64,000 nt of DNA from assembly GCA_902780695.1 (NCBI GenBank), contig CACZGM010000001.1, forward strand, positions 21,277 to 85,276, in the 5' to 3' direction. The DNA comes from an uncultured Ruminococcus sp. Its GTDB lineage: Bacteria > Bacillota > Clostridia > Oscillospirales > Ruminococcaceae. Below, piece by piece: positions 688 to 33,306 of this stretch. Every line of letters starts with the position of its first letter. The first letter of the stretch is position 1. A model generated the notes under the pieces. It saw only the letters and a program-made list of their open reading frames with translations, ran no database searches and was not told where the DNA came from. The translations under genes were made by a program, and so were the position numbers.

Positions 688-716
688 TTGTGTTTTATTG
701 TAAAATATGCTATAAT
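688..716 (+). promoter_or_regulatory. Promoter of the NRPS operon
   Basis: The -35 box TTGTGT (688-693) and -10 box TATAAT (711-716) are separated by 17 bp. Transcription would begin near 723. This excludes the upstream in-frame start at 690 and supports the ATG at 789. Confidence 0.7.
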
Positions 717-788
717 TTATCAGTTAAATGTATGTTTCTTTTCTTCGGTAAGGGAGAAAGCGCACAGCACTGCGAAAGGAGTACTGAT

Positions 789-11200: not shown

Positions 11201-11335
11201 GAGCGGTATTGTGAGCCGGACAAACTCCGTATCGTTCACACACCGCATGAGCATGACCTGATGATGGACGACCCGTCACTTAACATCATCGTACCGGAAA
11301 TGATGAAGGCAATAGAAGAAAGCAAAAAGGAGTAA
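8216..11335 (+). CDS. NRPS accessory protein: adenylation, carrier, degenerate condensation-like and thioesterase domains
   Basis: This protein has 1,039 residues. The adenylation domain spans about 1-505, with YTSGTTGKPKG at 151-161 and NGKVMRGELP as the catalytic-Lys end. The carrier domain has GGTSL with Ser 534. Residues about 595-770 resemble half of a condensation domain but lack HHxxxDG; the matching stretch reads TNRTAFDQ. An alpha/beta-hydrolase thioesterase ends the protein, with GWCYGG putting Cys 871 in the nucleophile position, LLDS as the acid region and HEHD (His 1011/1013). In the adenylation pocket the aspartate that normally binds the alpha-amino group appears replaced: SFVGTQMF stands where FDxxxxxM is usual. 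The domain may therefore load a carboxylic acid without a free alpha-amine, such as an N-cap for the first condensation domain. The start overlaps the previous stop (ATGA) and follows GGAGG, so translation is coupled. Confidence 0.9.
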   Translation: MKLFHELITEYAAAFPDKAAAVDPRGEISYGEMERLSYGFSRVLAALGTETGDAVAVYVPYTGEILLGAVSALRAGAVFIPFDCEYPVERLTFMLEDSGAKAILTTRELWEQKPLGFPEERVVFMDEPPSQEQKDVHCETLSDNSPAMLLYTSGTTGKPKGVLHIHKMLLHIADWMNVHEGAEMDGSTRSGVITSFSFVGTQMFLLGPLSKGGTVCIAPEAARKDLGYLHSFLAEQHITHIFVPSGLAAILAEDHDISGIFVFAAGEKLRNFRPLVPGNFLIDSYGSTETSGVLSKKVYGDETRILVGKPFTNTKTMIADEAMKPVKPGEAGELLISSEFMSRQYWKLPELSREKWIELDGTAWFRTGDRALLTAEGDHDILGRIDNMVKLRGFRIETGEVEAQVSAAAIKLGRSDVKQVVVTVKTVGGVENLVCYYESGQELDSQAVTEEIAKNLTEYMIPKLWVRMDAMPRNANGKVMRGELPQPRRQRKNSHYEALDSEVLARLVYTLEDLLDTSVSFSPDDRFTDLGGTSLIAIKYSALLREQGIRISSAQVLRLNVLRSIAEAADIAYEQLWTEKEYRMIREDFAARGEKILKVLPITPEQDDMLFKQILYPDRFDFRSAAFLQVDSPVSEKDLREVLDIVSEENEALRSAIVFHDVGVIQQVITDRKIPLEISDSEAIGSREMLETQNRLLCSPTDLQRTCPVQVIYLRTEGRYMLCVLTNRTAFDQTKRSVFLARLMGLLEERYPEDEAIRGWRELLEESLTESTGDAAEHKGEISTEKPSDICVYSENDGPKIVFIHTANTGSSAYYRLAARIGSKVSFSVIEPFNLYHQDEARYGIKQIAEKYIEILKRRQPQGPYILGGWCYGGVIAHEMACQLEKAGDDVRYLFLLDSHATTNEQLRSSFKAMSMQVDRTYFETSPLFADLREAGMLEAVIQNSMHSSEDMMNHDPSVFHGNVLYFKPDQIPSGISEESRRYWKRMMGFEAGNYERYCEPDKLRIVHTPHEHDLMMDDPSLNIIVPEMMKAIEESKKE

Positions 11336-12548: not shown

Positions 12549-15224
12549 TTGATCTGGATAATAAACAACTGCGCACTTCTGATACTCGGCACCATTGCCG
12601 GTGTAATGGGAGTCAGCTTTTATATGAGGAACAAGGATTCCTCCGGCAATATACGGTACTATATGCTTTTCTACGGCGTATTTTCCGCGCTGTGGTGCTT
12701 AAGCTACGGTATCCTTGGCGTATCGACCGATCTGTCCCTGTGCGAAATAATAAGAATACTGGGACTTATCGCGATAGACGCTTTTCTGATTAACGAAACA
12801 TTCCTCGCCACGGAAATGGCAGGCCTGACAAAGCGCCCTGCCCTGCTGATACGAACGGCTTCCGCTGTGCTGTCGGCGGTAGATCTGCTGATCTTTTCAA
12901 ATCCGGACGTTGATATCTTCATACGCGAGGACGGATATACCCGGTGGTTTGCAAACCCGGAAATGAAGATGAGCCGTTATGTGCATACCGTATTTGAGGT
13001 CGTAATGTTCCTCCAGCTTTTCAGTCTGGCTCTTGTCTGGCTGAAAAGGTGTAAATATAAACGTTCACGGAGATTTTTGTACATATTGATTACGGCAAAT
13101 TTCTCAATTCTCCTGTTTACAATTCCCGACACGCTGTTCCCGCTGCTCGGGCTTCCGGGAGTCGCCACTTCCGGCATCGGCGGCGCTGTCTGCACCATTG
13201 TCGTGTGGTACGGCGCTATCGTCCTCAATTCCTTTGATGTCAGCGTCAGCAATATCACCCACCGTCTGTTCGGCTTCATCGAAGCGGGAGTCATCGTATT
13301 TGACACTGACCGCAAAATTGCAATAATGAACGCCTATGCCCAGAACTGTCTGCCTGTCGGAAAGAGCAGAGAGCTGCATGATATGTTCAGCATAAACGAC
13401 ACGAGCATCGAAGCAATGTTCGACAAGGGCGTGAACGAGATATATTCCACCCGTCTGCTGGACAAGCAGGGCAAAAACGTCTATTCCGTAAAGCTCAATT
13501 CCGTAAAGGACAACTACGGAGAGCCGTACTGCTTCCTTATGGTATTCACGGACGTTACGGAGGAGCTTGAGCTCGCGGATAAGTTTGCCGTTGCGAGCCG
13601 CGCAAAGAGCCAGTTTCTTGCGCAGATGTCCCACGAGATCAGAACGCCTATCAACGCAGTGCTTGGCATGAACGAGATGATACTGCGCGAATCGACGGAC
13701 AGCGATATCCTCGAATATGCATCGAACATCGACTCTGCCGGAAACACGCTGCTCTCACTTATCAACAGCATACTTGACTTCTCGAAGATCGAGGACGGCA
13801 AAATGGAGCTTGTGCCGGTGAAATACGACACCGCATCCCTTATCAACGATCTTTACCATTCTATCATACAGCGCGCCGATTCAAAGGGGCTTGCGCTTGT
13901 TACCGAAGTTGACGGAAATCTGCCGTGTATGCTTTTCGGTGACGACGTGAGAGTATCACAGGTAGTAATGAACCTGCTGACCAATGCCGTAAAATATACG
14001 GAAAAGGGAACTGTCACCCTGACCGTTTCCATAGCGGAAACGAACGCGCAGAAGGTCACACTTTTCATATCGGTGAAAGACACCGGAATCGGCATCAAGG
14101 AAGAAGACCTCGGAAGGCTGTTCGAGTCCTTCGAGCGTCTTGACGAGATACGCAACCGCAATATCGAGGGTACGGGTCTCGGAATGTCGATAGTGACGAG
14201 CCTGCTGAAAATGATGGGCAGTGAGCTGAAAGTAAAGAGCAGGTACGGCGAAGGCTCCGAGTTCTATTTTCTGCTGGAGCAGGGCATCGCTGATCCGACG
14301 CCCGTAGGCGATCTTCAGGAGAGAATGAGGAAGCACACCGAGCGCAGGAACAAATCCGATGTTATAAGCGCACCGGGAGCCAGAGTTCTCCTTGTGGACG
14401 ACAACAGCATGAACCTCAAAGTCGCGAAGAACCTTCTCAAACTGTGCGACATCAGACCGGATATGGCTTCATCCGGCGAAGAGGCGATCGAATATATGCG
14501 GCACGGCACATACGATATCGTATTCCTTGACCACATGATGCCGAAAATGGACGGTATAGAAACGCTGCGGAAGCTGAAAAGCGAGGGTCTTATCCCGGAG
14601 AATACCGCAATGGTGGCGCTTACCGCCAACGCCGTTGTGGGTGCGCGGGAGATGTACCTTAACGAGGGATTTGAAGATTACCTGTCCAAGCCGATGGAAG
14701 TAAGGGATCTTGTCGAAAAGTTAAGAAAGTATCTGCCGGAAAGCGCGTACCGGGACAGCACTTCATCCGCTGCCGGAAGCGGCGACGCCGATATTCTCGA
14801 ATTCACGCCCGAGGATGACGGTGAGGTTATCGAGTTCACACCGGGCGGCGAAGATACCGCGGACAGAAAGTCCGGAATAGACCGTACCGCTCTCGGGATC
14901 GCGGGTATAGATGTTACATCGGGTCTCGCGTACTGCGCAAACGACGAGTCGCTCTACGCGGAAATGCTGAGTGATTTTGCTTCGTCCTGCGAAGAGAAGC
15001 TGAACGCGCTCGGCGGCTTCCTTGAAACGAAGAACTGGAAAGATTACGGTATAAAGGTACACGCTCTGAAAAGCAACGCGAGAATGATCGGTGCTGAATC
15101 TCTCTCCGCACTGGCGCTCAAGCTGGAAGAAGCGGCGAAAAGCGGCGACGGAGCATTCGTAACGGCGAACCATAAGGCTTTAGCCGAAGAGTATGCGCGC
15201 GTTTCCCGCAGTATAAATCTCTGA
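12549..15224 (+). CDS. 7TM hybrid histidine kinase (7TM-PAS-HisKA-HATPase-REC-HPt)
   Basis: This is an 891-residue membrane phosphorelay protein. Seven hydrophobic segments occupy about residues 5-225. A PAS-like region follows (240-350, with GVIVFDTDRKIAIMNAYA). HisKA carries SHEIRTP near 361. HATPase motifs include NLLTNAVKY, DTGIGI and GTGLGM. The receiver domain starts near 614 (LLVDDNSMN), with the phospho-acceptor Asp in VFLDHMMPKMDG and Lys in LSKP. The C-terminal HPt domain has VHALKSNARMIG (His about 838). Between REC and HPt is an acidic linker with two LEF/IEF-T-P motifs, also seen in two kinases at 22.8-30.9 kb. The start is a TTG at 12549 without a strong ribosome site; later ATGs would cut the first membrane segment. 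No cognate regulator is adjacent, so output is likely through a distant partner. Confidence 0.9.
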   Translation: MIWIINNCALLILGTIAGVMGVSFYMRNKDSSGNIRYYMLFYGVFSALWCLSYGILGVSTDLSLCEIIRILGLIAIDAFLINETFLATEMAGLTKRPALLIRTASAVLSAVDLLIFSNPDVDIFIREDGYTRWFANPEMKMSRYVHTVFEVVMFLQLFSLALVWLKRCKYKRSRRFLYILITANFSILLFTIPDTLFPLLGLPGVATSGIGGAVCTIVVWYGAIVLNSFDVSVSNITHRLFGFIEAGVIVFDTDRKIAIMNAYAQNCLPVGKSRELHDMFSINDTSIEAMFDKGVNEIYSTRLLDKQGKNVYSVKLNSVKDNYGEPYCFLMVFTDVTEELELADKFAVASRAKSQFLAQMSHEIRTPINAVLGMNEMILRESTDSDILEYASNIDSAGNTLLSLINSILDFSKIEDGKMELVPVKYDTASLINDLYHSIIQRADSKGLALVTEVDGNLPCMLFGDDVRVSQVVMNLLTNAVKYTEKGTVTLTVSIAETNAQKVTLFISVKDTGIGIKEEDLGRLFESFERLDEIRNRNIEGTGLGMSIVTSLLKMMGSELKVKSRYGEGSEFYFLLEQGIADPTPVGDLQERMRKHTERRNKSDVISAPGARVLLVDDNSMNLKVAKNLLKLCDIRPDMASSGEEAIEYMRHGTYDIVFLDHMMPKMDGIETLRKLKSEGLIPENTAMVALTANAVVGAREMYLNEGFEDYLSKPMEVRDLVEKLRKYLPESAYRDSTSSAAGSGDADILEFTPEDDGEVIEFTPGGEDTADRKSGIDRTALGIAGIDVTSGLAYCANDESLYAEMLSDFASSCEEKLNALGGFLETKNWKDYGIKVHALKSNARMIGAESLSALALKLEEAAKSGDGAFVTANHKALAEEYARVSRSINL

Positions 15225-15260: not shown

Positions 15261-15535
15261 GTCTGTCAAAAAATAAATTTTTTGACAGACTTGTCCTGCG
15301 CGGACAGCGCCAGCCCCCTTTAAAAAAGGGGGCTGGACACCCTAAACCAATGCAGTATTTCAGAGATGCATCAGTGGGTCGCTCTGAAAGAAATGAATGG
15401 GGGTTGGCAAAGACTCCGTGCAGAAATAGCAGAGTAAAGCTATCCGGGGTGGCGCACCCGCCGAAAGAAGAATGTCGCTACGCAAAACGCCGCGGGGCGT
15501 TCCCCGCCGGCGCGTCCGCCGCTGTTTTTATGTAC
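15261..15535. repeat. Composite palindromic repeat element, copy 1
   Basis: In order it holds a GTCTGTCAAAAAA/TTTTTTGACAGAC hairpin, a CCAGCCCCC/GGGGGCTGG hairpin (about 15310-15336), a segment containing GCAGTATTTCAGAG, a GGGGGTTGGC segment, a GCTATCCG segment, and the GAAGAATGTCGCTACGC core followed by a GCCGCGGGGCGTTCCCCGC palindrome. The same ordered parts recur at 22380, 40890, 50690 and 54904. No gene is supported. Confidence 0.7.
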
Positions 15536-15597: not shown

Positions 15598-15750
15598 AAA
15601 TGTATCCTCACAGCCGTCTGCTGTAAAGGATACCGGTGTCACAGAAAATTACCGTGTCACTATCTCTTTTTTCGTAAACTGCGAAACCTTTCCGAAATTT
15701 TCGCGTCTATATGTATGAAGACAGGTTCGGGTGAACCTCCGGAGGGAAAA

Positions 15751-16311
15751 ATGGAAGATACACAAATAATCGAGATGTACTGGGAGCGCAATGAAAATGC
15801 CATTGCAGAAACGCAGACAAAGTACGGTGCGTATCTGCGCCGCGTTGCCTACAATATCCTCGCGAATGACGAGGACTGCGGCGAATGTGTCAACGATACA
15901 TATTACCGGACCTGGGAGTCTATCCCGCCGAACAGACCCGCAAAGCTGTCCGCATATCTTGCCGCTGTCACACGGAACCTTGCGGTAAGTATGTTCAGAA
16001 GAAAAAATACCGCGTCACGCGCCGGGTCGCAATACGCCTTGTCTCTTGACGAGCTTGCGGAGTGCGTTTCCGGGAACGACACGGTGGAAAGTGCGGCGGA
16101 GAACAGTCTGATCGCGAAAAGCATCAGTGACTATCTGCGCACTCTGCCGCAGGAATCGCGCATTATTTTCGTGTGCAGATATTTCTACAACGATTCGATA
16201 AGCGACATTGCCGCTTATTTCGGCGCAGGCGAATCAAAGATAAAGAGCTCGCTTTTCCGCACAAGAAAAGGTCTCAGAGAGTATCTTACAAAGGAAGGGA
16301 TCGAAATATGA
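15751..16311 (+). CDS. ECF-like sigma-70 family RNA polymerase sigma factor
   Basis: The protein has 186 residues, with a region 2 half (RRVAYNILANDEDCGECVNDTYYRTWESIPP) and a region 4 half (LRTLPQESRIIFVCRYFYNDSISDIAAYFG, then SSLFRTRKGLREYL as recognition helix). It lacks regions 1.1 and 3, as in ECF factors. The ATG at 15751 follows GGAGGG; an in-frame ATG at 15715 lacks a site. Its stop overlaps the next start (ATGA), which couples it to a membrane protein with an anti-sigma-like N-terminus. That layout suggests the two proteins are sigma and anti-sigma. Targets are unknown. The operon promoter is an ordinary sigma-A type. Confidence 0.9.
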   Translation: MEDTQIIEMYWERNENAIAETQTKYGAYLRRVAYNILANDEDCGECVNDTYYRTWESIPPNRPAKLSAYLAAVTRNLAVSMFRRKNTASRAGSQYALSLDELAECVSGNDTVESAAENSLIAKSISDYLRTLPQESRIIFVCRYFYNDSISDIAAYFGAGESKIKSSLFRTRKGLREYLTKEGIEI

Positions 16312-19300
16312 AAAAAGATAAGCTTTCCGATGCTGTCGGCATGATAGGCAGCGACATAATCGAAGAAGCCGATGAGAAAAGACAGCAGCAGCCGGAAAAA
16401 CCTCAGCGGCGCAGAAAGCCGATATACATAGCGGCGGCTGTATTTACCGCGGCTGCGGCTGCGATAACCGGAGTTGTTGTCGTGCCGAAACTCACAAATA
16501 ACGGCATAACCACGGCTTCGACAGAGACCGCCGCAGTCACGGAGGCTCCCGTGTCCGTGACCGCAACGTCCGGAACGACATCCGCGGCTGTTACGGATAC
16601 CGCTGTCCCGTTCTCAAGAGAGCGCCGCAGAAGCAGCATTATCTCCGGTATAGAAGCAGTAGGCTATGAAAGCGGAGATATCGCCTCGGACAGCGAGTTC
16701 CGAATCGACCTGTTCAATGACGTTTCCGAAGAGGAGCTGCGCAGTCACCTTAAACTTGAAACCGGCGGCGAATTCACGCTTACCCGCGGCGGTGACGGCT
16801 CATACCTGCTGAAAACGGAAAACGCGTTCGAGAAGGGCAGCATGGTGCGCTTCACGGCAGCGGACGACAACGGCGATATATGCGACAGCTGGGCTTTCCG
16901 CACGGCAGAGAATTTTGATGTGGCTTCCACATACCCGTATGACGGCTGCACCGGAATATTCCTCGGCACGGGAATAGAGGTCGATTTCACTACCAGACCG
17001 GCGGCAGACGGCATCGAGGAATATATTGAGATCACACCGGATATCGGTGCCGATATAAGCGTAAACGACAAGACACTATATATTATTCCGAAGAACGGCT
17101 TGCAGCCGGACACCGTTTATAACGTAAAGCTGAAAACGGGGCTCCCGTCGCTGTACGGCGGAGCACTCGGCGCGGACAATGAATTCTCGTTCCGCACCAC
17201 TGTCTATTCCTACTACGGCGAACGCTCGTTCCTTATGACCGGCAGCACGTCCAGCGGATTTTCCGAGACCTTCATTCCCGGAGATCAGCCCTGCGTCGAG
17301 ATACAGTGCTCGGACAATCTGCGCAAGCTCGAATTTGAGACGCATCTGTACCGCTTCGGCAGCTCCGACGATTACTTCTCCGCCGTAAAAGAACGCGCGG
17401 ATAGCATCTGGGCAAGCGACGCGATCACCGACACTTCCGGTCTCACCGAAGTGTTCACCTCAAAGGAAGTGCCGTTCACACGCGAGAGTACGTCCGGTTC
17501 TTCCGTGCGTTCAAGCTATATTATGCTCCCGGACGATCTTGCCGAGGGATATTACATTGCCGATATAAAGACAAAGGACGGCGACGGCGCCGAATACGCG
17601 ATACAGTATATGATACAGGTGTGTCCGGTATCGGTATATGCCTTGAGTCTCGGTGAGGAGAATGTATTCTTCGTGAACGACACCGTTACAGGTCAGCCCC
17701 TGTCCGGTGCAAAGATCACCATGACCGTCGGTGAAAAGGAGTATGAGGGCGTTGTGGGCTCCGACGGCACCGCTTATATAAAGACAGGCGGCGAACACGG
17801 CAGAGCTGTGCTCAACATCGGCGCGAAGGGGTCAAGATATATAGACAGCTATATCCTTTCCGATGCGGAGAACGTGGTATATGAAGACCTTTACTACCTC
17901 TATCTCTTCACCGACCGCGAAGCGTATCTTCCGACCGACACCGTGAATGTGTGGGGCGTCATCGTTCCGAAGATAAGCGGCACAGAGCTGCCGGACGATC
18001 TGAAGCTCAGACTTGACAGCACATCAAAGCCGGTTACAGTCGAGCCGGACGGTACGTTCAGAGTGAAGTTCGCGCTTGATTCCCACGAAGAAACATGGTG
18101 GGATCCGATAACGCTTATGAGCGGGAATGACGAGATAATAAGCAAGTCTATACAGGTACACGACTATGTGAAGCCCACTTATGTCGTTGATATCGACGCG
18201 CCGGAATATCTGATAATGCCGCAGCTCGAACCCTTTGACGTTTCGCTGAACGCTTCGTACTATGAGGGCACTCCCGCGGAAGGTCTTATATTCAGCTATG
18301 TGCAGTACGCCGGCGGAGAGAGCACACCCAAGATGCCCAAAACCGACGGAACCGGCAGCACCTCCGCAAGAATATCCTGTTCAGACAGCGAGGCTCTGAA
18401 CAGCTGGAAAATGGGGACATTTGACGCAGCCTACGTCCTTACCGGCGTTGAGAACAGCTATACGGACTACGATGCCCGCATTCCGGTATTCAGCCGCGAC
18501 AGAATGGACGAGTCGGAATATGACCCCGAGACCAACACGCTCACGGTATCGCTCTATGATATGAACTTTGACAGGATAGAGGAATTTCTCGATACCACGA
18601 CTTATGACGGCTATTACCGCTGGGGCGGGGATTATGACATACTAAAGGGCAAGCCTGCGGATTCCCGTGTGAGCGTGACATTGAATCATTCGTGGAGCGA
18701 AAAGACCGAAAGCGGCAGCTACTACGACTATATAGAGAAAAAGCAGATACCCACATACAGATACGAGTACAGGAATGAAGAACTCGGACCGTTCTACGCG
18801 GACAGCGAAAACGGCAAGGCTGTGTTCACCGATCTGCCGATAAACGACAATGATTATTACTGGCTGCGCATATCCTATCCCGACAGCCTCGGACAGACCG
18901 TGCAGAATGATATTTATGTCACCTCGGCGGCTTACAACGGGCTTGTGGTATATTCAAGCGACGGCAGTGTCATGGTATATGACGGCAAGTCGGATAATCT
19001 GGTCTTCCGTCTTGACGCGCAGTCGGAAGGCACAAGAGAAGCGGGCTACTACTCGACCTATGCCGCGTTCTCCGAAAACGAGAATATAAAGTTCGACCTC
19101 AGATGCAGCAGCGGCGAGACAGCGTTCACCGGAAAGGTGCTGTTCACCGTATATCAGAGCGACTTCATCACCTGTGAGGTACATGACCTTGAAAGCAGCA
19201 GCAGCTTCACATACAGAGCGGAAAAGGACTGCATACCCGACGCGCGGTACGAGGGCGCGTTCTTCGACGGCAGACACGTTTACAAGGTTTACGGAAGCTC

Positions 19301-21353
19301 TATAATCTATGACCCGAAGGAGCGCGGCATAAAGCTCACCGCGTCCTCCGACCGCGACAGCTATGACGCGGGAGATACCGCAAAGCTGAAGGTGAAAGCT
19401 GTCGATAACAACGGAGTTCCCGTAGAGGGTGCGACCGTACTGCTGAGCATGGTTGACGAAGCGGCTTTCGCGATAGCGGATCAGAATGCCGCCCCTCTCT
19501 CCGACCTGTACAGATATATAAACTATCCGTTCGCCGTCGATTATATCAGCTATATACAGCACTTCGCAGATAACGGCAGTGCCGGCGAAAAGGGCGGCGG
19601 CGGTCCGAGTGCGTCAAGAAAGGATTTCAGGGACACCGCTTATTTCGCCTCCGCAGAGACCGACAGCGACGGATACGCGTTCTTCACGGCGGAGCTGCCG
19701 GATAACCTCACCACATGGAGAGCAACATTTGTCGCGGTATATGACACCGACGAGGACAGAATGATGTCCGGTACGTCAAGACTGCCGGTAGTCGCGACAC
19801 GCCCGCTGTTCATCACACCCGTGATGCATACGCAGTTCGTCGCCGGCGACGATATCGCGGTAAGCGCAAAGTGCGCGGGACTGCCTTCGAGCGAGAAAAT
19901 GACCGTCCGCATAACCGGTGACGGCACGGACGAAACTTTTGAGATAGGACAGCAGGAGACCGCGAACTTCGGCAAGCTGCCCGTCGGCGAGTATAAAGTG
20001 ATGTTCGGCGCGGAGTACGGCGAAAACAGCGACGCTGTGGAAATGACGCTTACCGTTTCAGAAACACTGCTTGAAACGGATATCACAAATTTCTGCGGCC
20101 TTAAAGAGCTTTCATCTCATATCGCGCCTACAAAGTGGCCTGCAAGAATAGCTTTCTTCGACAAGGAATATATGTTCGGCACGGAGCTCCTCTACAACCT
20201 TGCCTGCTACACGGGCGAAAGCCTTGATATGCGCCTCGGCGCTGCCTATGCGGCAAAAGAGCTCGGCTATATGACGGACGAGGAGATCGCGGAGATGTTC
20301 GCGGACGAGACAGCCGAGGGCTACGCGAGACTTCTGCCCGGGTCGGAGACAAGCAGCAGACTAACGGCGCTGATGTGTGCGGCAGTTCCCGGATCGGTCG
20401 GCACACACGCGAAGAATGCTCTCGAAAACGGACTCGGTGCGATCGATCAGGCTCCCGCAAACTATATGGGACTCGCGGCACTCGGCGAGCCGGTGCTGAA
20501 CGATATCAAGAGCTTTGCGGAAACCTACACTACTGCCGACAGGACCGACAGCCTGTATCTTGCGGCGGCGCTCGCCTACTGCGGCGATTATCAGGCAGCC
20601 TATGACGCATATATCAGCTGTGTTCCGGATATCACGGTAAATGACAGCGACCCCGATAACCCCTTCGCTTATGTTCCCGACGAGTCCGGCAGTGCGGATG
20701 AAGCAGTAACGAAAGCGGCGCTTATTACCGCTTCCCTGCTGGATATGCCGGAAGCGGAGTATTTCGCAAGATATCTGATCTCCGACCGCACGGTTTACAG
20801 CGGATACGCGCTGGAGCTTGTTATCTATCTTGAAAACTACATCCCGAAGACCGAGGGCGATGCGGTATTCACCTATGAGCTTGACGGAAACAAGATGACC
20901 GAAAAGCTCGACCGTCATCACCCGACCATACTCGAATTCAGCAGAGATCAGTTTGAGAACGCAAACTTCAATGTACTCTCCGGAGATGTATATACCATAT
21001 CCCACTATGTCGGAAGAGTTGACCGCAGCGAAAAGTCTCCGTCCGTAAAGGTGACAAAGTCCTACGAAGGCACATTCGGCGTGGGCGAGACAATAACCGT
21101 GCATATCCACTCTTCGCCTTACTGCGCGGTATATGATGTCGTTCCGTCCTGCGGAAGACTTGTCGGAAGCAGCAAGGGACAGCTTGTCCGCCTTTACACC
21201 GACATGAACGGAAACGCGCAGTACACCTTCAACGTCTCCACTGCCGGAAACTATGTCACGGAGCCCGCTGTTGTTTACAGCAGCAGCGACGATTCGTGGG
21301 GAATGTCCGCGCGCGGTGAGATAACTGTGAGTGACACCAATGAAACTGCATGA
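16308..21353 (+). CDS. Membrane-anchored alpha-2-macroglobulin-like protein with anti-sigma-type N-terminus
   Basis: This protein has 1,681 residues. Residues 1-40 are cytosolic and charged, and begin MKKDKLSDAVGMIGSDIIEEADE. That resembles the start of anti-sigma proteins found after ECF-type genes in Clostridia. One membrane segment follows (about 41-62), then a Ser/Thr/Ala linker and a long extracellular part. The ectodomain shows bacterial alpha-2-macroglobulin features: an MG-type repeat with DREAYLPTDTVNVWG, a bait-region-like stretch with a GEKGGGGPSASRKD loop, and the A2M core LPDNLTTWRATFVAVYDTDED followed by RPLFITPVMHTQFVAGDD. The C-terminal part has helical-toroid-like repeats. 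The CxEQ thioester motif is not visible, so covalent trapping is unlikely. Family members inhibit or trap proteases. Here proteolysis of the ectodomain could signal inward to the sigma factor, which is inference. Translation is coupled to the sigma gene. Confidence 0.82.
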   Translation: MKKDKLSDAVGMIGSDIIEEADEKRQQQPEKPQRRRKPIYIAAAVFTAAAAAITGVVVVPKLTNNGITTASTETAAVTEAPVSVTATSGTTSAAVTDTAVPFSRERRRSSIISGIEAVGYESGDIASDSEFRIDLFNDVSEEELRSHLKLETGGEFTLTRGGDGSYLLKTENAFEKGSMVRFTAADDNGDICDSWAFRTAENFDVASTYPYDGCTGIFLGTGIEVDFTTRPAADGIEEYIEITPDIGADISVNDKTLYIIPKNGLQPDTVYNVKLKTGLPSLYGGALGADNEFSFRTTVYSYYGERSFLMTGSTSSGFSETFIPGDQPCVEIQCSDNLRKLEFETHLYRFGSSDDYFSAVKERADSIWASDAITDTSGLTEVFTSKEVPFTRESTSGSSVRSSYIMLPDDLAEGYYIADIKTKDGDGAEYAIQYMIQVCPVSVYALSLGEENVFFVNDTVTGQPLSGAKITMTVGEKEYEGVVGSDGTAYIKTGGEHGRAVLNIGAKGSRYIDSYILSDAENVVYEDLYYLYLFTDREAYLPTDTVNVWGVIVPKISGTELPDDLKLRLDSTSKPVTVEPDGTFRVKFALDSHEETWWDPITLMSGNDEIISKSIQVHDYVKPTYVVDIDAPEYLIMPQLEPFDVSLNASYYEGTPAEGLIFSYVQYAGGESTPKMPKTDGTGSTSARISCSDSEALNSWKMGTFDAAYVLTGVENSYTDYDARIPVFSRDRMDESEYDPETNTLTVSLYDMNFDRIEEFLDTTTYDGYYRWGGDYDILKGKPADSRVSVTLNHSWSEKTESGSYYDYIEKKQIPTYRYEYRNEELGPFYADSENGKAVFTDLPINDNDYYWLRISYPDSLGQTVQNDIYVTSAAYNGLVVYSSDGSVMVYDGKSDNLVFRLDAQSEGTREAGYYSTYAAFSENENIKFDLRCSSGETAFTGKVLFTVYQSDFITCEVHDLESSSSFTYRAEKDCIPDARYEGAFFDGRHVYKVYGSSIIYDPKERGIKLTASSDRDSYDAGDTAKLKVKAVDNNGVPVEGATVLLSMVDEAAFAIADQNAAPLSDLYRYINYPFAVDYISYIQHFADNGSAGEKGGGGPSASRKDFRDTAYFASAETDSDGYAFFTAELPDNLTTWRATFVAVYDTDEDRMMSGTSRLPVVATRPLFITPVMHTQFVAGDDIAVSAKCAGLPSSEKMTVRITGDGTDETFEIGQQETANFGKLPVGEYKVMFGAEYGENSDAVEMTLTVSETLLETDITNFCGLKELSSHIAPTKWPARIAFFDKEYMFGTELLYNLACYTGESLDMRLGAAYAAKELGYMTDEEIAEMFADETAEGYARLLPGSETSSRLTALMCAAVPGSVGTHAKNALENGLGAIDQAPANYMGLAALGEPVLNDIKSFAETYTTADRTDSLYLAAALAYCGDYQAAYDAYISCVPDITVNDSDPDNPFAYVPDESGSADEAVTKAALITASLLDMPEAEYFARYLISDRTVYSGYALELVIYLENYIPKTEGDAVFTYELDGNKMTEKLDRHHPTILEFSRDQFENANFNVLSGDVYTISHYVGRVDRSEKSPSVKVTKSYEGTFGVGETITVHIHSSPYCAVYDVVPSCGRLVGSSKGQLVRLYTDMNGNAQYTFNVSTAGNYVTEPAVVYSSSDDSWGMSARGEITVSDTNETA

Positions 21354-22317
21354 TCGCAACCTACTGCGCACTGCCGCGGTGACTGCCGCAGCGGCTGTAC
21401 TCGCCGGCTGCGGAAACGGCGCGGCGGTGCAGACCTCCGCGCTCCCGCCCCCGGCGGTATTGTCAGCGGAGACAATTGCGGAGGAGACACCCGCGGCAGC
21501 CGGATATACTCCGCACTCCGAGCTTCTTGACTGCCTTTATTACAGCGACCGCGACTTCCACATCTACGACGAGCGCAGCACGATATACGAAACGAAGGGC
21601 AGAGTGCTGTGCGCCGTGGCTCCGCATCATCTTGCGGCGGGACATTTCATCGCGGGAATGTACCGTACCGCCGCCGAAACAAGGAACGATATCGACACAG
21701 TGGTTCTTGTCGCACCGATGCACTACGATTCCGCGAATGTGCTATGTACAAGCTCCCGCAGCTTCGCAACGGCGTTCGGCACAGCGGAAACGGACACGGA
21801 GATAACGGATATGTTCGTGTCACGTCTCGGCGCGGCAAAGGACGACTATATGACCGAATTTGACCACAGCGCGTCGTCGCATATACCGTTTATCAGTTAT
21901 TACCTGCCGGACGCGAAGATCGCGTGCCTGCTCGTTTCACCGAAGGAGAGCGCCGATCTGCCGGAACGCCTGTCGGAGCTGCTGTATGAGATCTCGGAAA
22001 AAAAGAGCTGTCTGTTCGCGTTTTCGATAGATTTCTCGCATTATCTCGAACCCGATGAAGCGGCAGCTCACGACAAGGAAACGTATGAAGCGGTGATGTC
22101 CGGCGATACCGGGCGGATAGAGCGTTTCACGAATTCCAATGTGGACACGCCGTATTGTCTGAGCACGTTCGTCCGGCTTTCGGAGAAGCTCGGCGGAAAT
22201 ATCATACCGGCCGACAACGGCAATACCTTTACCGTCGGCAGCAAGCCATACAGCCGTTCGCAGTTCCCGGAGGGCGTGACAAGTTACTTTGTGTTCCTCT
22301 GCAAGAGAGATTTTTGA
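21340..22317 (+). CDS. MEMO / AmmeMemoRadiSam B-family lipoprotein
   Basis: This 325-residue protein has a lipoprotein signal (hydrophobic segment, then VLAGC). The mature part matches the MEMO1/AmmeMemoRadiSam B family, with APHHLAAGHFIAGMYR, VLVAPMHYDS, FDHSASSHIPFISYY and AFSIDFSHYLEPDEAAAHD. The conserved His, Asp and Cys-region residues correspond to the family's putative metal site. Family function in bacteria is unsettled; the fold resembles class III dioxygenases. It overlaps the A2M gene by 14 bp and so belongs to the operon. A surface location next to a protease-trap-like protein is unusual for a family mostly known as cytosolic. The ATG at 21340 is chosen; a GTG at 21331 is possible. 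Confidence 0.85.
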   Translation: MKLHDRNLLRTAAVTAAAAVLAGCGNGAAVQTSALPPPAVLSAETIAEETPAAAGYTPHSELLDCLYYSDRDFHIYDERSTIYETKGRVLCAVAPHHLAAGHFIAGMYRTAAETRNDIDTVVLVAPMHYDSANVLCTSSRSFATAFGTAETDTEITDMFVSRLGAAKDDYMTEFDHSASSHIPFISYYLPDAKIACLLVSPKESADLPERLSELLYEISEKKSCLFAFSIDFSHYLEPDEAAAHDKETYEAVMSGDTGRIERFTNSNVDTPYCLSTFVRLSEKLGGNIIPADNGNTFTVGSKPYSRSQFPEGVTSYFVFLCKRDF

Positions 22318-22379: not shown

Positions 22380-22840
22380 CCCCCGCCAGCCCCCTTTAAA
22401 AAAGGGGGCTGGACACCCTAAACTAATGCAGTATTTCAGAGCGTACAGCTATGGGCAGCTTTTGACTGAAACGCAGTGGGGTTGGTAGAGATTCCGTTCC
22501 TAAAATAACAAATAACCGCACAGATTGTTAGTCTGTGCGGTTTCAATTTTACCATATATAGAAGAGAATAACTAACCGAGTGTGCTGTTGTTGCTGCTTT
22601 ATATGTGCGCTTCGTGCGCACTTTTGGCAGCAACTACCACTGCATCATGCAGTGCACCTTCCGATAGAAGAATGTCGCTACGCATTACGGAGCGGCGCGT
22701 TCGCCGCCCGCACAGATTGTTAGTCTGTGCGGTTTCTTTTTTACCATATATAGAAGAGAATAACTAACCGAGGTGCTGCACCTTCCGATAGAAGAATGTC
22801 GCTACGCATTACGCCGCGGGGCGTTCCCCGCCGCAGCGTA
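22380..22840. repeat. Composite palindromic repeat element, copies 2 and 3
   Basis: This stretch holds the CCAGCCCCC/GGGGGCTGG hairpin (about 22388-22412), two ACAGATTGTTAGTCTGT hairpins (about 22515-22540 and 22710-22735), the palindromes TGTGCGCTTCGTGCGCA and CACTGCATCATGCAGTG, and two AGAAGAATGTCGCTACGC cores (22668 and 22790). The hairpins probably also serve as bidirectional terminators between the convergent MEMO gene and kinase operon. The gap 22318-22840 has no supported gene. Confidence 0.7.
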
Positions 22841-25522
22841 TCAGATGATCGCCCTGATCTTCTCCGCGGTCTCAGTCAGCATTTCCTTCAGTTCTGTATT
22901 ATGCTCGGCAATATACTCTCTGTCGTCATTCTTCGCGGCATTTTCGAGCGCCTTCGCAAGCTCCGATATGCTGTCCGCGCCCACCGTCTTGGACACGCTT
23001 TTGAGCGAATGAACAAGTATGCGGTAATTCTCCAGATCGCCGGTCTCATACGAACGGCACAGATCCGAGAGCCGGTTCTCCGCCGTTCCCGCGTAGTCGG
23101 TCAGCATCTCACAGTAGAACCCGAGATCTCCCGCGCAGTACGCAAGCCCGGACTTCACCGACAATCCCGCCCTGCTCAGCCCTGCAAGCACTTCATCGCC
23201 GCTTCCGGGGCTTTTTGCCTTGTTCTCCGCACCGTGAGCGTTATCTGCGCTGTCGTCCGCCGGTGCGAATTCCAGAATACCGTCCGTATCTTCGGAGCTG
23301 TCTGCGGGCGCTCCGGCTGCGGCTTCCCGCTTGCCGGAAGGCTCGTCCTGTATTTCCGCGCACTCCTTCGGCAGATATTCCGCCAGCGTTTCGGCAAGGC
23401 GTGATATCTCGATAGGCTTGGAAAGATAATCGTCAAAGCCCGCTTCAAGATACATCTCCTTCGCGCCGTTCACCGCGTTCGCCGTCAGCGCGATAACATC
23501 GGTCTCGTCGGGGATCAGATGCTCCTCACGCAGCTTTTCCAGTGTTTCTATGCCGTCCATTTTCGGCATCATGTGGTCAAGGAAAAGTATGTCGTAGGTC
23601 TTGCTGCGCATGATCTCTATGGTCTCCGCGCCCGACAGCGCCGTATCAGCTTTTATGCCGAACAGCCTGAGCAGATTTTCGGCGACCTTTATGTTCATAT
23701 CATTGTCGTCGGTGACAAGCACCCTTGCGCCGGGATATGACGCTCTCGCCTTTTCCCTGCGCTCCGCGCGGTTCGCGTGACGCTCAAGGATATTGCCGAT
23801 AGGCTTCTCATCGTAAATTCCCTGCTTTATCTCAAAGGAGAACACCGAGCCGACGCCGTAAACGCTCTCGACTTCGAGCTTGCTGTCCATGAGTGCCAGC
23901 AGCTTGGTGACTATCGCCATTCCGAGACCCGTACCCTCTATATTGCGGTTTCTTGTCTCGTCAAGCCTCGAAAAGGACTCGAACAGCTTTTCCATGTCTT
24001 CCTGTCTTATGCCTATGCCGGTATCCTTCACCGATACCGCGAGAACTATCTCGCCGTCGGAACGGCTTTTGCCCGATACGGAGAAGGTTATGCTGCCGCG
24101 CTCGGTGTACTTGACCGCGTTCGTGAGCAGATTGGTTATAACCTGCGACACTCTCACGTCGTCGCCGTACATCACGCCCGGAAGCTCCGGATCGGCTTTA
24201 ACGATGAATTCCAGTCCCTTCTTTCTTGCGCGTTCGGAAACGCTGTTCACAAGGTTGTTTATCATGGAGGCGGTATCGTATTTTACCGGGATTATCTCCA
24301 TTTTTCCGTCATTGATCTTTGAGAAGTCGAGTATGCTGTTGATAAGCGACAGAAGCGTTCTGCCCGCGGTCTGGATATTCTCCGAATATTCAAGGATATT
24401 GTCGCTGTCCGATTCCCGCAGTATCATCTCGTTCATGCCGAGTATTGCGTTTATCGGGGTGCGTATCTCGTGGGACATCTGCGCAAGGAAGTCGCCCTTT
24501 GCCTTGTTCGCGGCATCTGCGGCGGACTTTTCGAGCCGCAGCAGTTCCGTTTCGTAAGTTTTCTGCTGCTCGCTTATTTTGAGAGCCTCCGCCTCGCGTC
24601 CTATCTTCTGTTCATTGCGGTAGGCGAGGTAATAGAACAGCGCTATCAGCAGGAACACGACCGCATATACCACGACATTTACCGTCAGCTGCGAGTACAT
24701 CTCCTTGAACAGCTCGTCGTTCCCGACGACAATAACGACATACCACCGGTTCATTACCGAATCCGTGAACACGGTGCATTGCTTGCCGTTGACCTTTGTC
24801 TCGAAGCGTCCGGTGCCTGTGCTTTTCAGCTTTTCCATAAGCTCCGCACCGCCGTCGATATCTCCGACGGACTCGCCGTTAAGTGCGGTTTCCCTGTGTG
24901 CGACCACCGTTCCGTCGCGGTCGAGTATCATTCCGTAGCCCTTGCCGTTTATGCTGGTGTTGTCTATCACGTCCTGTATGTGGTTTGTATATACATCGAG
25001 CGCGATAACGCTCTCATGGTCTGAAAGCAGTCTGCATACCGATATCACCACCGCGCCCGTCTGCGCATCGACATAGGGCGGCACGATGACGAGTTCGCCT
25101 CGTCCCTCCCTGGCAAGCAAATACCAGTCGCGCTTGGTGGGCTCGTAACCCTCCGGCGGCACCCAGTTAAGTCCGTCGAAATACTTGCCCCCGATATATC
25201 CGTAAAGTCCGGTGTAGTTCTCGTCAAACTGGCTTTTGTGCCGCTGCGTTTCCTCCACGATATAGTCGAGTATCTTCTCCTCGGGCTCATTGTTCGCCAT
25301 CATGAAGTCAACGGTGTCACCCGTTATCCACAGCACGCTTCTGGCTGTATCAAGATAGTTTCCGAGACTTGCCGAGATACCCGTTGTCTTGTCTCCGCCG
25401 ACCTCATATATATTCGATACCGATATGCGGTAGAACAGATCAGACGTATATGCTATGACAAGAACCATTATTATCAGCGTAGTGGCAAGCGGGAGTGTAA
25501 GATTCAGCTTGTTCCTTTTCAC
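22841..25522 (-). CDS. Cache-sensor hybrid histidine kinase (dCache-HisKA-HATPase-REC-HPt)
   Basis: This protein has 893 residues. A membrane segment (about 8-28) precedes an extracellular double-Cache domain of about 260 residues containing the motif RDWYLLAREGRGE. A second membrane segment (about 276-298) leads to HisKA with SHEIRTP (about 348), HATPase (NLLTNAVKY, DTGIGI, GTGLGM), REC (VTDDNDMN, then LFLDHMMPKMDG with the acceptor Asp, and LSKP) and HPt with VHSLKSVSKTVG (His about 837). Cache domains bind small molecules such as amino or organic acids; the ligand is unknown. A linker LEFAPADD before HPt matches a motif in its neighbours. The GTG at 25522 follows AAAGGAG and is preferred over an in-frame GTG at 25555. 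It is last in the four-gene operon. Confidence 0.9.
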   Translation of the reverse strand: MKRNKLNLTLPLATTLIIMVLVIAYTSDLFYRISVSNIYEVGGDKTTGISASLGNYLDTARSVLWITGDTVDFMMANNEPEEKILDYIVEETQRHKSQFDENYTGLYGYIGGKYFDGLNWVPPEGYEPTKRDWYLLAREGRGELVIVPPYVDAQTGAVVISVCRLLSDHESVIALDVYTNHIQDVIDNTSINGKGYGMILDRDGTVVAHRETALNGESVGDIDGGAELMEKLKSTGTGRFETKVNGKQCTVFTDSVMNRWYVVIVVGNDELFKEMYSQLTVNVVVYAVVFLLIALFYYLAYRNEQKIGREAEALKISEQQKTYETELLRLEKSAADAANKAKGDFLAQMSHEIRTPINAILGMNEMILRESDSDNILEYSENIQTAGRTLLSLINSILDFSKINDGKMEIIPVKYDTASMINNLVNSVSERARKKGLEFIVKADPELPGVMYGDDVRVSQVITNLLTNAVKYTERGSITFSVSGKSRSDGEIVLAVSVKDTGIGIRQEDMEKLFESFSRLDETRNRNIEGTGLGMAIVTKLLALMDSKLEVESVYGVGSVFSFEIKQGIYDEKPIGNILERHANRAERREKARASYPGARVLVTDDNDMNIKVAENLLRLFGIKADTALSGAETIEIMRSKTYDILFLDHMMPKMDGIETLEKLREEHLIPDETDVIALTANAVNGAKEMYLEAGFDDYLSKPIEISRLAETLAEYLPKECAEIQDEPSGKREAAAGAPADSSEDTDGILEFAPADDSADNAHGAENKAKSPGSGDEVLAGLSRAGLSVKSGLAYCAGDLGFYCEMLTDYAGTAENRLSDLCRSYETGDLENYRILVHSLKSVSKTVGADSISELAKALENAAKNDDREYIAEHNTELKEMLTETAEKIRAII

Positions 25523-25559
25523 ATTTCCGCTCCTTTCGTGGAGATCAGTACTCACACGG

Positions 25560-28232
25560 TCATTTATGCTTGAGAAGCAGTCCGAAGGTTCCCTCGCCGC
25601 AGTTTACCGCGACAGCCGGAGAAGCCTTGTGGAAATAGATATGCCTGAAATTCATCTTTTTTCCGGCATAGTTCCTGATCTCGTCAAGCTCACGCTTCGT
25701 AAGCCCGACATAGGTAACGAACAGGATATCGTCGTCTATATCGCTCTTTGCGCGCAGGACATTGTCTATGTATTGTTTCCATACCCGCTCCCTCGCGCCG
25801 AAGTAGATGCCGCCGACAGAGAGCCTGCCGTTCCTCATTACAAGAACGGGTCTTGCCATAAACGACTTCATTATATCGGCTACCCGTTTGCTTACCTGAT
25901 GCGCCCTCGCGAGGTAGTCAAGATTATCTACCACGAAGCTGGTCTTTACCTTCGATTTCAGCTGTTCTATCCGTTCTGAGATCTCGGCGGGCGTCTTTCC
26001 CGCTTCCGCAAGCCTGCAGGCTTCGATGACGAGCAGACCCTGACCGCTGGAGAGGTGTCCGGTATCTATTACAGTAACGTTGTCGAATGCCGCGGCCGCT
26101 TCCTTTGCGGCATGACAGCCGCTGTTCGTGACCTTCGACGATATGGATATGTGGATTATGTTGTTCGCCTTTGCGAGGTTCTCCGCAAAGAACTCCTCAT
26201 GTGTCCTTACGTCCGGAGACTTGGTCATTACGCTGCGGGAATTGTCGCGCATATAGTTGAGCAGCCCCATTGTCTCGATCTCGCAGCCGTCAAGGAATAC
26301 GCCGTCCTCCGTGCAGACACTGTGCGGCAGAACGGATATGCCGTACTCGTCGATAAGCTCCTGCGGCAGGTCGGCAACGCTCTCGGTGGTCACGATTATG
26401 TTCTTCTTCCGCTGGTCGGAGCGCATCCACGATATGGTCTCCTCCAATATCTCGCTGTCCTCGCCGTAGAGGAAAACTATGTCGCTCGGCAGCAGCCTGC
26501 AAAGCTCGTTTTCAAGCTCGTTGCCGTTCACCGGCTTGGTGAGGTATCCGTCAAATCCCTCGCTTGCGTAGAGCGTCCTGCTGTCACTTCCCACGTTTGC
26601 GGTAAGCGCGACTATCTTTGCGTCTCTGCACCTGCCGCCGACCTGCGTGCGGATATTCCTGTGGCACTCTATTCCGTCCATATCCGGCATAAGGTGATCC
26701 ATAAATATAACGTGGTACTCGTTCGCCAGCGTCTTTTTGAGAGCCTCAGCGCCGCTTGACACGGTCTCTACCTGTACCTTAGTGTCGCGCAGCAGCTTTC
26801 TGATAACGAGAAGGTTTGACTCGTTGTCGTCAACGACAAGCACCTTCGCGTCCGGAGCCTCGAATCTGCGGTTGTAATTGACCCGTCTGCTCAGATCATG
26901 CCGCCTTTCGAGATTGAGCTCTCCGATGCTCTGGTCTCCCATAACCACCTGCGGTATCTCGACAATAAATGTCGAGCCCTTCATATAAACGCTGTTTACG
27001 GTGACCGTTCCGCCCATAAGCTCCGCAAGCTGCTTCACTATCGAAAGACCGAGACCCGTACCTTCGATATGGCGGTTGTGGTCCTCATCCGCGCGCTTGA
27101 ACGCAGTGAACAGGTAGGGGATATCCTCTTTCTTGATGCCTATTCCCGTATCGGTGACGGTATATATGATGCTGAGGGTATTGCCGTCGCGCTCGCCGCA
27201 CTGCATGGACAGCGACACGGAACCCTCCTTCGTGTACTTTATGGCATTGTTGAGAACATTTATCAGTATCTGCTTTATGCGCACCTCGTCGCCTATCAGC
27301 TCATAGGGTATATCCGGCGCGACGTTCACGCGGAAGTCGAGGTTTTTCTGCTTCGCCCTTATCCACAGCATACCGACGATCTCCGACAGCATATCGCCGG
27401 GGTGATATACGCCGTTGGTAAGCTGCATCTGACCGGATTCGAGCTTTGACATATCGAGTATGTCGTTGATAAGGTGCAGCAGCATCTTTCCCGCAGAGCC
27501 GATATTCGCAGCGTCCTCTGCGACCTCCTCCGAGATGTTCTCACGCAGTATCATCTCATTCAGACCGATTATCGTATTTATCGGGGTGCGTATCTCGTGG
27601 CTCATGCTGGAGAAGAAACGGCTCTGTGAAATATTGAGGTTTTCGATCTCCTTTTTCTGTTTCTGACTGATCTTGACCTCGCGGTCATACATCATATTCT
27701 GCAGCGTGACCATTACGGTCACGCATATACTGATAAGCACCAGCGCCGCGAAAGAGAACGAGTGCGCCATAAGCGGGCTGTTCGGGACGACAAGCTCCGG
27801 CATATAGCAGGAAAGTCCCCAGCAGGTCGCGGAAACAAGCGTGTCCATGATCATGAACAGCACCTTTGCTTTTCCCTTCATGCTTATGTTTATCAGCACA
27901 ACGCCGAACAAAAACCACAGCGGAGCGTCGCCGTATATGCCGCCGCCGAAGAAGAAGGTCATAGGCTGATACACAAACACGATACCCGCCGTTATTATCA
28001 TCGCCCCGACCGTTATCCTGTCAAGCCTTACCGACAGTACAACGACCGCCGTCAGCAGCACGATACCGGCTAAAAGGAACAGTATATCCCTCAGTGTCCC
28101 GCCGATCAGTACTATCTCGACGAGCGTTATCAGCCACGAAGCGATCGTTACCGACGTTATCAGCACGAACATGCGTTCATGCATATCTATCTCGTTGTTG
28201 AACAAGAATTCCTTGATCTTTTTGAGCTTCAT
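25560..28232 (-). CDS. Hybrid histidine kinase fused to a DegV fatty-acid-binding domain
   Basis: This protein has 890 residues. Six or so N-terminal membrane segments (to about 185) precede HisKA with SHEIRTP (about 211), HATPase (NVLNNAIKY, DTGIGI, GTGLGL) and REC starting near 461 (VVDDNESN, then VIFMDHLMPDMDG and LTKP). From about 608 to the end lies a complete DegV/FakB-like domain: IIVTTESVADLPQELIDEYG, HISISSKVTNSGCHAAKEAA, VTVIDTGHLSSGQGLLV, VVDNLDYLARAHQVSK and RPVLVMRNGRLSVGG. Family DegV proteins bind fatty acids and present them to a fatty-acid kinase. I know of no standard histidine kinase with this domain at its C-terminus. It could sense free fatty acids inside the cell. It lies 14 bp after the upstream kinase gene, with GGAGG before the ATG. 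Confidence 0.9.
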   Translation of the reverse strand: MKLKKIKEFLFNNEIDMHERMFVLITSVTIASWLITLVEIVLIGGTLRDILFLLAGIVLLTAVVVLSVRLDRITVGAMIITAGIVFVYQPMTFFFGGGIYGDAPLWFLFGVVLINISMKGKAKVLFMIMDTLVSATCWGLSCYMPELVVPNSPLMAHSFSFAALVLISICVTVMVTLQNMMYDREVKISQKQKKEIENLNISQSRFFSSMSHEIRTPINTIIGLNEMILRENISEEVAEDAANIGSAGKMLLHLINDILDMSKLESGQMQLTNGVYHPGDMLSEIVGMLWIRAKQKNLDFRVNVAPDIPYELIGDEVRIKQILINVLNNAIKYTKEGSVSLSMQCGERDGNTLSIIYTVTDTGIGIKKEDIPYLFTAFKRADEDHNRHIEGTGLGLSIVKQLAELMGGTVTVNSVYMKGSTFIVEIPQVVMGDQSIGELNLERRHDLSRRVNYNRRFEAPDAKVLVVDDNESNLLVIRKLLRDTKVQVETVSSGAEALKKTLANEYHVIFMDHLMPDMDGIECHRNIRTQVGGRCRDAKIVALTANVGSDSRTLYASEGFDGYLTKPVNGNELENELCRLLPSDIVFLYGEDSEILEETISWMRSDQRKKNIIVTTESVADLPQELIDEYGISVLPHSVCTEDGVFLDGCEIETMGLLNYMRDNSRSVMTKSPDVRTHEEFFAENLAKANNIIHISISSKVTNSGCHAAKEAAAAFDNVTVIDTGHLSSGQGLLVIEACRLAEAGKTPAEISERIEQLKSKVKTSFVVDNLDYLARAHQVSKRVADIMKSFMARPVLVMRNGRLSVGGIYFGARERVWKQYIDNVLRAKSDIDDDILFVTYVGLTKRELDEIRNYAGKKMNFRHIYFHKASPAVAVNCGEGTFGLLLKHK

Positions 28233-28246
28233 GCGATCCTCCGTCC

Positions 28247-30874: not shown

Positions 30875-30875
30875 T

Positions 30876-33230: not shown

Positions 33231-33277
33231 TATGTACCTCCGCTGCAATGCGTCTTTTGCATAAAAATCCATTATAT

Positions 33278-33306
33278 ATTGTAACAAAAAAAGCGCTCCG
33301 TGTCAA
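33278..33306 (-). promoter_or_regulatory. Promoter of the four-gene signalling operon
   Basis: Minus strand: TTGACA (33306-33301), a 17-bp spacer and TACAAT (33283-33278). It is close to consensus. Transcription would begin near 33271, giving a leader of about 40 nt to the ATG at 33230. Confidence 0.85.

Follow-up and report, generated by a model that had tools for sequence, protein, structure and literature searches.

A probable ECF sigma/anti-sigma unit with a thioester-less alpha-2-macroglobulin ectodomain and a MEMO-family neighbour in an uncultured Ruminococcus

What would a sigma factor, a very large alpha-2-macroglobulin (A2M) protein and a lipoprotein of the MEMO family be doing together in one set of overlapping genes? 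The question is raised by positions 15751-22317 of a 64,000-nucleotide stretch of DNA (hereafter the window; contig CACZGM010000001.1, positions 21,277 to 85,276) from an uncultured Ruminococcus sp., whose genome assembly (GCA_902780695.1) comprises 3.29 Mb in 153 contigs and is 96.8% complete. An original prediction, made from the window's letters, described three overlapping genes for a sigma factor, an A2M protein and a MEMO protein, and both the open reading frames (ORFs) and Pfam matches for all three products bear this out. The genes are co-directional:

15751..16311, + strand: extracytoplasmic function (ECF) sigma factor, 186 aa (Sigma70_r2 and Sigma70_r4_2 in Pfam; TIGR02937 in NCBIfam)
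16308..21353, + strand: one-pass A2M-family protein without a thioester, 1681 aa (A2M, A2M_BRD and Big_5 in Pfam; Foldseek; GCxEQ absent)
21340..22317, + strand: MEMO-fold lipoprotein with lipobox Cys24, 325 aa (PF01875, TIGR04336, alignment A5, Foldseek match to MEMO1)

The sigma gene runs from an ATG at 15751 to 16311, stop codon included; the ATG of the A2M gene at 16308 lies in an ATGA overlap and that gene ends at 21353, while the MEMO gene runs from an ATG at 21340 to 22317. The nearest named relative at this locus (L041; surveyed loci and genomes carry L and G numbers) is a Ruminiclostridium metagenome-assembled genome (MAG) from goat abomasum, with 74% identity in the A2M protein. The answer that we consider probable is that the locus encodes a self-regulated transmembrane sigma/anti-sigma unit in which the thioester-less A2M ectodomain would be the sensor, a reading that draws on comparisons of gene content, the A2M N-terminus, a promoter motif, gene pairing and the absence of the thioester.

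The first gene product is an ECF sigma factor, being short and having both region 2 and region 4: it matches Sigma70_r2 (1e-9) and Sigma70_r4_2 (3e-7) and scores 66.2 bits against the NCBIfam sigma70-ECF model TIGR02937 (cut-off 42.9). The same genome contains six more sigma factors with 40-45% identity to it (five more distant sigma matches, L036-L040, were left out of this set), and each of the six, on examination, overlaps with a following gene for a protein with an N-terminal motif similar to the A2M one (e.g. DAVTEIRDDIIEQA vs DAVGMIGSDIIEEA; the weakest case is L032). A profile built solely from these six paralogous N-termini, which are anti-sigma by position and type, gave 15.9 bits for the window's A2M protein and 7.5-21.1 bits for all 13 orthologous units. 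Among 15 A2Ms from sigma-less loci the best score was -0.1 bits, and a control set of 331 ORF starts was taken from the window plus five loci; once its six A2M genes are set aside, the highest score in it is 3.2 bits. For the A2M protein, NCBIfam yields a single weak match, with an anti-sigma model at an E-value of 0.008, which falls far short of that model's cut-off. The start of the protein is thus predicted to contain:

16308..16385, + strand: short cytosolic anti-sigma segment, A2M residues 1-26, with LSDAVGMIGSDIIEEA (15.9 bits with the paralogue profile)
16422..16487, + strand: transmembrane segment, A2M residues ~39-60, after a basic RRRK stretch, N-in orientation expected (read from the sequence)

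Conservation is 0.59 for residues 1-26, 0.26 for the linker past the membrane segment and 0.48 for the whole protein. By sequence comparison, homology of the A2M N-terminus to the anti-sigma-like segments of genes next to sigma factors of this ECF group is well supported, and the earlier proposal that an ECF sigma factor is matched by an anti-sigma-like start on an A2M ectodomain gains from the profile's recovery of the window's protein and all 13 orthologues.

The unit is not confined to this genome. Our A2M profile has matches in 20 of 71 genomes of the genus, 14 with the sigma gene directly upstream; the remaining six either have divergent A2Ms, without a sigma gene in the available sequence, or are cut by contig ends. 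The order sigma-A2M-MEMO is kept in 12 of the 13 unit-bearing genomes in which it could be judged, the window included (in L053, from genome G052, the contig ends inside the A2M gene and a MEMO fragment lies on another contig). Conserved co-occurrence of the three genes, proposed beforehand as a check, was therefore found; the refuting outcome named with it, a pairing missing from related genomes, did not arise.

A motif upstream of the sigma gene, seen across the unit-bearing genomes, predicts a promoter for the operon:

15683..15711, + strand: predicted ECF promoter, GAAACC-N15-CGTCTATA

The pattern was composed after inspecting the sequences. Its loose form, G[CA][GAC]AC[CA]-N13/18-CGT[CT][TC] at most 160 bases from the sigma start, occurs in all 14 unit-bearing genomes, and its strict form, G[CA][AG]ACC-N15-CGTCT, in 12 (all except L050 and L061); the spacer is 15 in 13 of 14 (in L048 via the farther of two copies) and 16 in L061. 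When the upstream regions were base-shuffled (1000 rounds), the loose form appeared in a mean of 0.057 of the 14 loci, with a maximum of 2. An alternative sigma start at 15715 would give a protein of 198 aa; we prefer 15751 because a GGAGG-like site precedes it and because the predicted promoter ends at about 15711. Scanning with GMRACC-N15-CGTCTWTA gave 15 matches in 15 genomes (the 14 bearing the unit plus G024, in which the A2M contig is cut), 11 before sigma genes and 4 before lipobox-like starts, compared with 2 for the reversed control, and the sole exact match in the window's own genome is the operon's own site. Since the motif accompanies the sigma gene in every unit and the self site is the only exact match in its genome, the sigma factor likely regulates its own operon. 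A regulon beyond the operon was not established by promoter scans of the own genome, the 15 just described and 25 unit-lacking genomes of the genus, and a broad regulon finds no support in a genome where the operon's own promoter alone matches exactly. In that genome, two sites with one mismatch lie ahead of genes that by eye resemble the lipobox-type off-operon ones; L179 and L180 from this genome and L173-L176 from relatives have lipobox-like starts, look related by eye and carry exact or near ECF promoter motifs, and these genes possibly form a shared regulon. One of the four sites in unit-lacking genomes (L182, in G028) is 3 bases upstream of the ORF for another ECF factor of the same type, so the motif may be common to this ECF group.

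The second gene product belongs to the A2M family, with A2M and bait-region domains in macroglobulin order: Pfam matches are A2M PF00207 (6e-8; the only match to this family in the genome), A2M_BRD (6e-6) and Big_5 (6e-8), with MG2 and MG3 below cut-off. A structure model of residues 482-1681 has fair local confidence (predicted local distance difference test score, pLDDT, 77) and poor whole-chain confidence (predicted template modelling score, pTM, 0.45). The best Foldseek match of the modelled core is E. coli A2M (5a42) at an E-value of 1e-37, with template modelling (TM) scores of 0.31/0.25 that are low because the whole-chain arrangement of the model is unreliable. Two parts of the ectodomain matter here:

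19527..19634, + strand: predicted bait-like disordered segment, A2M residues 1074-1109, with a GEKGGGG core (longest stretch of pLDDT <50, between the A2M_BRD and A2M matches)
20163..20837, + strand: helical domain where the thioester domain would be, A2M residues ~1286-1510, without GCxEQ (model helices, motif scan)

The thioester motif [GA]CxEQ is absent from the window's A2M and from all 33 Bacillota loci L041-L073 (L052, L055, L066, L069 and L072 being partial genes). Of the 47 other loci, L074-L120, 43 have it, and the remaining four are truncated at 996-1075 aa. As judged from this motif, the window's A2M is not a thioester-type protease trap. In one MAG (L013/L055) the A2M gene occupies two overlapping frames.

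The bait-like segment bears on the suggestion, already present in the original prediction, that the protein senses proteolysis. As a protease tripwire, its bait would be cut by host or rumen proteases, the A2M would change shape and the sigma factor would be released. The segment is kept and predicted to be disordered (10-residue pLDDT means of 23-41) and has one Lys in its core, ahead of the Gly run, in all 14 sigma-bearing members, which makes a cut-sensitive switch possible, and a bacterial A2M changes shape upon bait cutting according to the excerpted text of PMC4498604. Yet the segment is short, is rich in Gly and shows an average rate of evolution (conservation 0.51, compared with 0.48 for the whole protein), Lys and Arg are absent from it in four Syntrophomonas and related members (L065, L067, L069 and L070), and the thioester is missing, all of which leaves the tripwire a tentative proposal that we regard as somewhat unlikely. 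The average rate also gives no support to a hypervariable bait.

A second lineage helps to separate the A2M from its neighbours. In another family of the same order (f19), 5 of 12 genomes contain this A2M, and in all five the gene immediately preceding it encodes an ECF factor of another type: the L023 sigma factor is 18% identical to the window's, and the other four match the L157 sigma factor (the same gene as that of L023) at E-values of 1.5e-15 or better. Each of two genomes searched had just a single sigma factor of this type. The N-termini of these A2Ms bear a different conserved segment, MK[FL] followed by P..E.[IV] and basic residues, which the window's anti-sigma profile does not recognize (at most 1.9 bits). 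In a tree inferred for 40 A2Ms by a quick LG+G4 search (its root branches are long, L048 and L050 are left out, and L053 is scored as MEMO-bearing despite its cut contig), the two sigma-bearing groups form separate clades, each with a Shimodaira-Hasegawa-like approximate likelihood ratio test (SH-aLRT) support of 100; the sigma label needs 2 changes and the MEMO label 5. On this tree, two separate A2M clades have sigma control. This double tie to sigma factors, in one case in the absence of MEMO, is an argument for the A2M itself being read out, and because the window's sigma-bearing clade is nested among MEMO-bearing ones, the sigma factor would have come after MEMO in this lineage.

The A2M-MEMO pair reaches further than the sigma unit, and it is rare but tight. 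Sequence past the A2M gene is available for 29 of the 33 Bacillota loci L041-L073, and a MEMO gene is found there in 26 (it is absent from L050, L060 and L062); in 24 of the 26 its start codon, picked by script, is at -20 to +2 nt relative to the A2M stop. Among 99 relatives, 24 have the A2M and 15 the MEMO; none has MEMO without A2M, and nine have A2M without MEMO (in one of these, G012, the contig is cut within the gene). In a survey of 393 genomes of the class, with five candidates scored per genome in the first pass, only seven, the window's own included, had a MEMO of this type (E-value 1e-10), which marks the pair as rare in the class, and in all seven it follows an A2M gene by no more than ~100 bases. 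Pairs without a sigma gene occur in Syntrophomonas, Symbiobacteriaceae and several Oscillospiraceae MAGs; inspection by eye and scoring with the profile suggest that the A2Ms there are lipoproteins or one-pass proteins lacking the anti-sigma segment. The original view of MEMO as chiefly a part of the sigma system must therefore be corrected. These sigma-less pairs, together with a genome in which the sole exact promoter match is the operon's own, would also suit an arrangement in which A2M and MEMO are effectors only and the sigma factor answers another cue, such as protein turnover or envelope state, to set the dose of the operon. We give this only about one chance in four, given that the A2M protein itself carries the anti-sigma segment and that the second lineage, which lacks MEMO, has a different sigma-linked segment.

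The third gene product belongs to the MEMO family by fold and by sequence. It matches Memo PF01875 in Pfam (2e-15) and TIGR04336 in NCBIfam (1e-23), and its model (pLDDT 89) has human MEMO1 as its top PDB match in Foldseek (E-value 4e-13, TM scores 0.63/0.69). A first MEMO profile (A2) had no match among PDB sequences at 0.01, and a wider one (A5) reached MEMO1 at 2e-7. By eye the protein has a lipobox-like VLAGC with Cys24. All 25 rows of alignment A5 share residues H96, H128, D231, H234 and D269. The iron ligands of MEMO1 are H49, H81 and C244, according to the part of PMC11081632 available to us. In the profile alignment, H96/H128 fall on MEMO1 H49/H81 and D231/H234 on D189/H192 (the numbering of the 3bcz chain is 4 lower), and the third ligand place, a Cys in MEMO1, is probably taken by D269. 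Together H96, H128 and D269 would presumably make a 2-His-1-carboxylate set as in extradiol dioxygenases, an assumption of ours from position rather than coordinates. AMMECR1 is the usual partner of bacterial MEMO proteins; AMMECR1 (PF01871) has no match in this 96.8% complete genome, so by this partner the window's MEMO does not fall within AmmeMemoRadiSam.

With its residues kept at the places of MEMO1 H49 and H81, and with its tight pairing to the A2M, MEMO could instead be the sensor, of metal or redox state, with the A2M merely passing its signal across the membrane; sigma-A2M units that lack MEMO (L050/G108 and f19) make this improbable. Chance adjacency of unrelated genes, in whose favor only the patchy presence in the genus might be cited, is refuted by a gene order that holds in 12 of the 13 genomes open to judgement and by the promoter motif, present in 14 of 14.

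Several observations weigh against our preferred reading of a self-regulated sigma/anti-sigma unit with the A2M ectodomain as sensor. Although the pairing is found in relatives, this A2M is missing from 51 of the 71 genomes surveyed in the genus, and the L050 unit (G108) has no MEMO downstream. One-mismatch promoter matches in the own genome number 6, compared with 15 for the reversed control, and off-operon matches show no clear excess, with 4 in the 15 unit-bearing genomes and 4 in the 25 unit-lacking ones (where the reversed control gave 7). No MEMO gene lies within ~1.5 kb on either side of the five f19 units, and f19 branches off first among the Bacillota, which leaves the tree silent on whether MEMO presence or absence is ancestral to all these A2Ms. 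The original prediction as a whole thus stands in part: the sigma factor and the homology of the A2M N-terminus hold and are conserved, and it is the role given to MEMO that changes.

If the preferred reading is right, residues 1 to ~26 of the A2M protein, on the cytosolic side, would keep the ECF sigma factor bound at the membrane. When the ectodomain changes, most plausibly because its bait is cut or because it binds a ligand or the MEMO lipoprotein next to it, the membrane-proximal linker would be exposed to regulated proteolysis and the sigma factor freed, as in RsgI systems. The freed factor would then use the predicted promoter to transcribe mainly its own operon, yielding more A2M and MEMO. 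The A2M-MEMO pair would be the older surface module in this lineage, with the sigma module added later.

Known systems resemble the unit only in part. SigI/RsgI offers a parallel for the release step, though SigI is not an ECF sigma factor. In Clostridium thermocellum, RsgI proteins sense substrates and control cellulosome genes, and the likeness lies in a sigma factor and a membrane anti-sigma that senses substrates outside and is subject to proteolytic release (as given in the accessible part of PMC12203970), whereas the window's unit has an ECF sigma factor and an A2M ectodomain. Anti-sigma domains of <50 aa were set aside as possible class II in the excerpted text of PMC7406223; the ~38 cytosolic residues of the window's A2M resemble class II (CnrY-like) anti-sigmas in size, and its ectodomain is unlike theirs in being an A2M. 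The A2Ms of E. coli and Salmonella (5a42, 4u48 and 4rtd) share the fold, by Foldseek, and a disordered bait-like segment, but the window's A2M differs in lacking the thioester and in having an anti-sigma segment and a MEMO partner. AmmeMemoRadiSam protein B and MEMO1 (TIGR04336, PF01875) share the fold and several site residues with the window's MEMO, which differs in being a predicted extracellular lipoprotein, in the lack of an AMMECR1 match in its genome, and in the probable Asp269 at the Cys ligand place.

The surroundings of the operon have features of their own. A 58-base intergenic repeat, with copies 98% identical, flanks it on both sides (window 15308-15365 and 22384-22441) and might conceivably have served its spread. 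Also to either side are large hybrid signalling genes (window 12549-15224 and 22841-33287), which encode four hybrid histidine kinases, one with Cache and one with DegV, and a receiver-GGDEF-HD protein; the DegV case, at 25560-28232 on the - strand, joins a hybrid histidine kinase and receiver to a C-terminal DegV (PF02645, 7e-42), a fusion that looks unusual. Further upstream, window 690-11335 holds two genes of the nonribosomal peptide synthetase (NRPS) type, one with a terminal NAD_binding_4 reductase-type domain and the other with a thioesterase domain.

In the open-licence literature we found no description of an A2M with an anti-sigma segment or ECF factor, with MEMO, or with a sigma gene neighbourhood, which agrees with the original remark that no such three-part system is known. 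More speculatively, and with considerable doubt, the thioester-less A2M and the lipid-anchored MEMO metal protein might constitute an undescribed surface module of some Clostridia, in which MEMO chemistry replaces the covalent thioester trap, and whose A2M independently became an ECF-sigma-reporting transmembrane receptor in two lineages. If the preferred reading is true, a bacterial A2M would serve as a signalling receptor, a role that we did not find in print within that literature. For the MEMO family, which according to PMC11081632 has an unknown primary function in humans, the unit would supply a testable genetic partner, and the link of A2M to sigma factors in two separate clades makes the question of what a membrane A2M detects directly testable.

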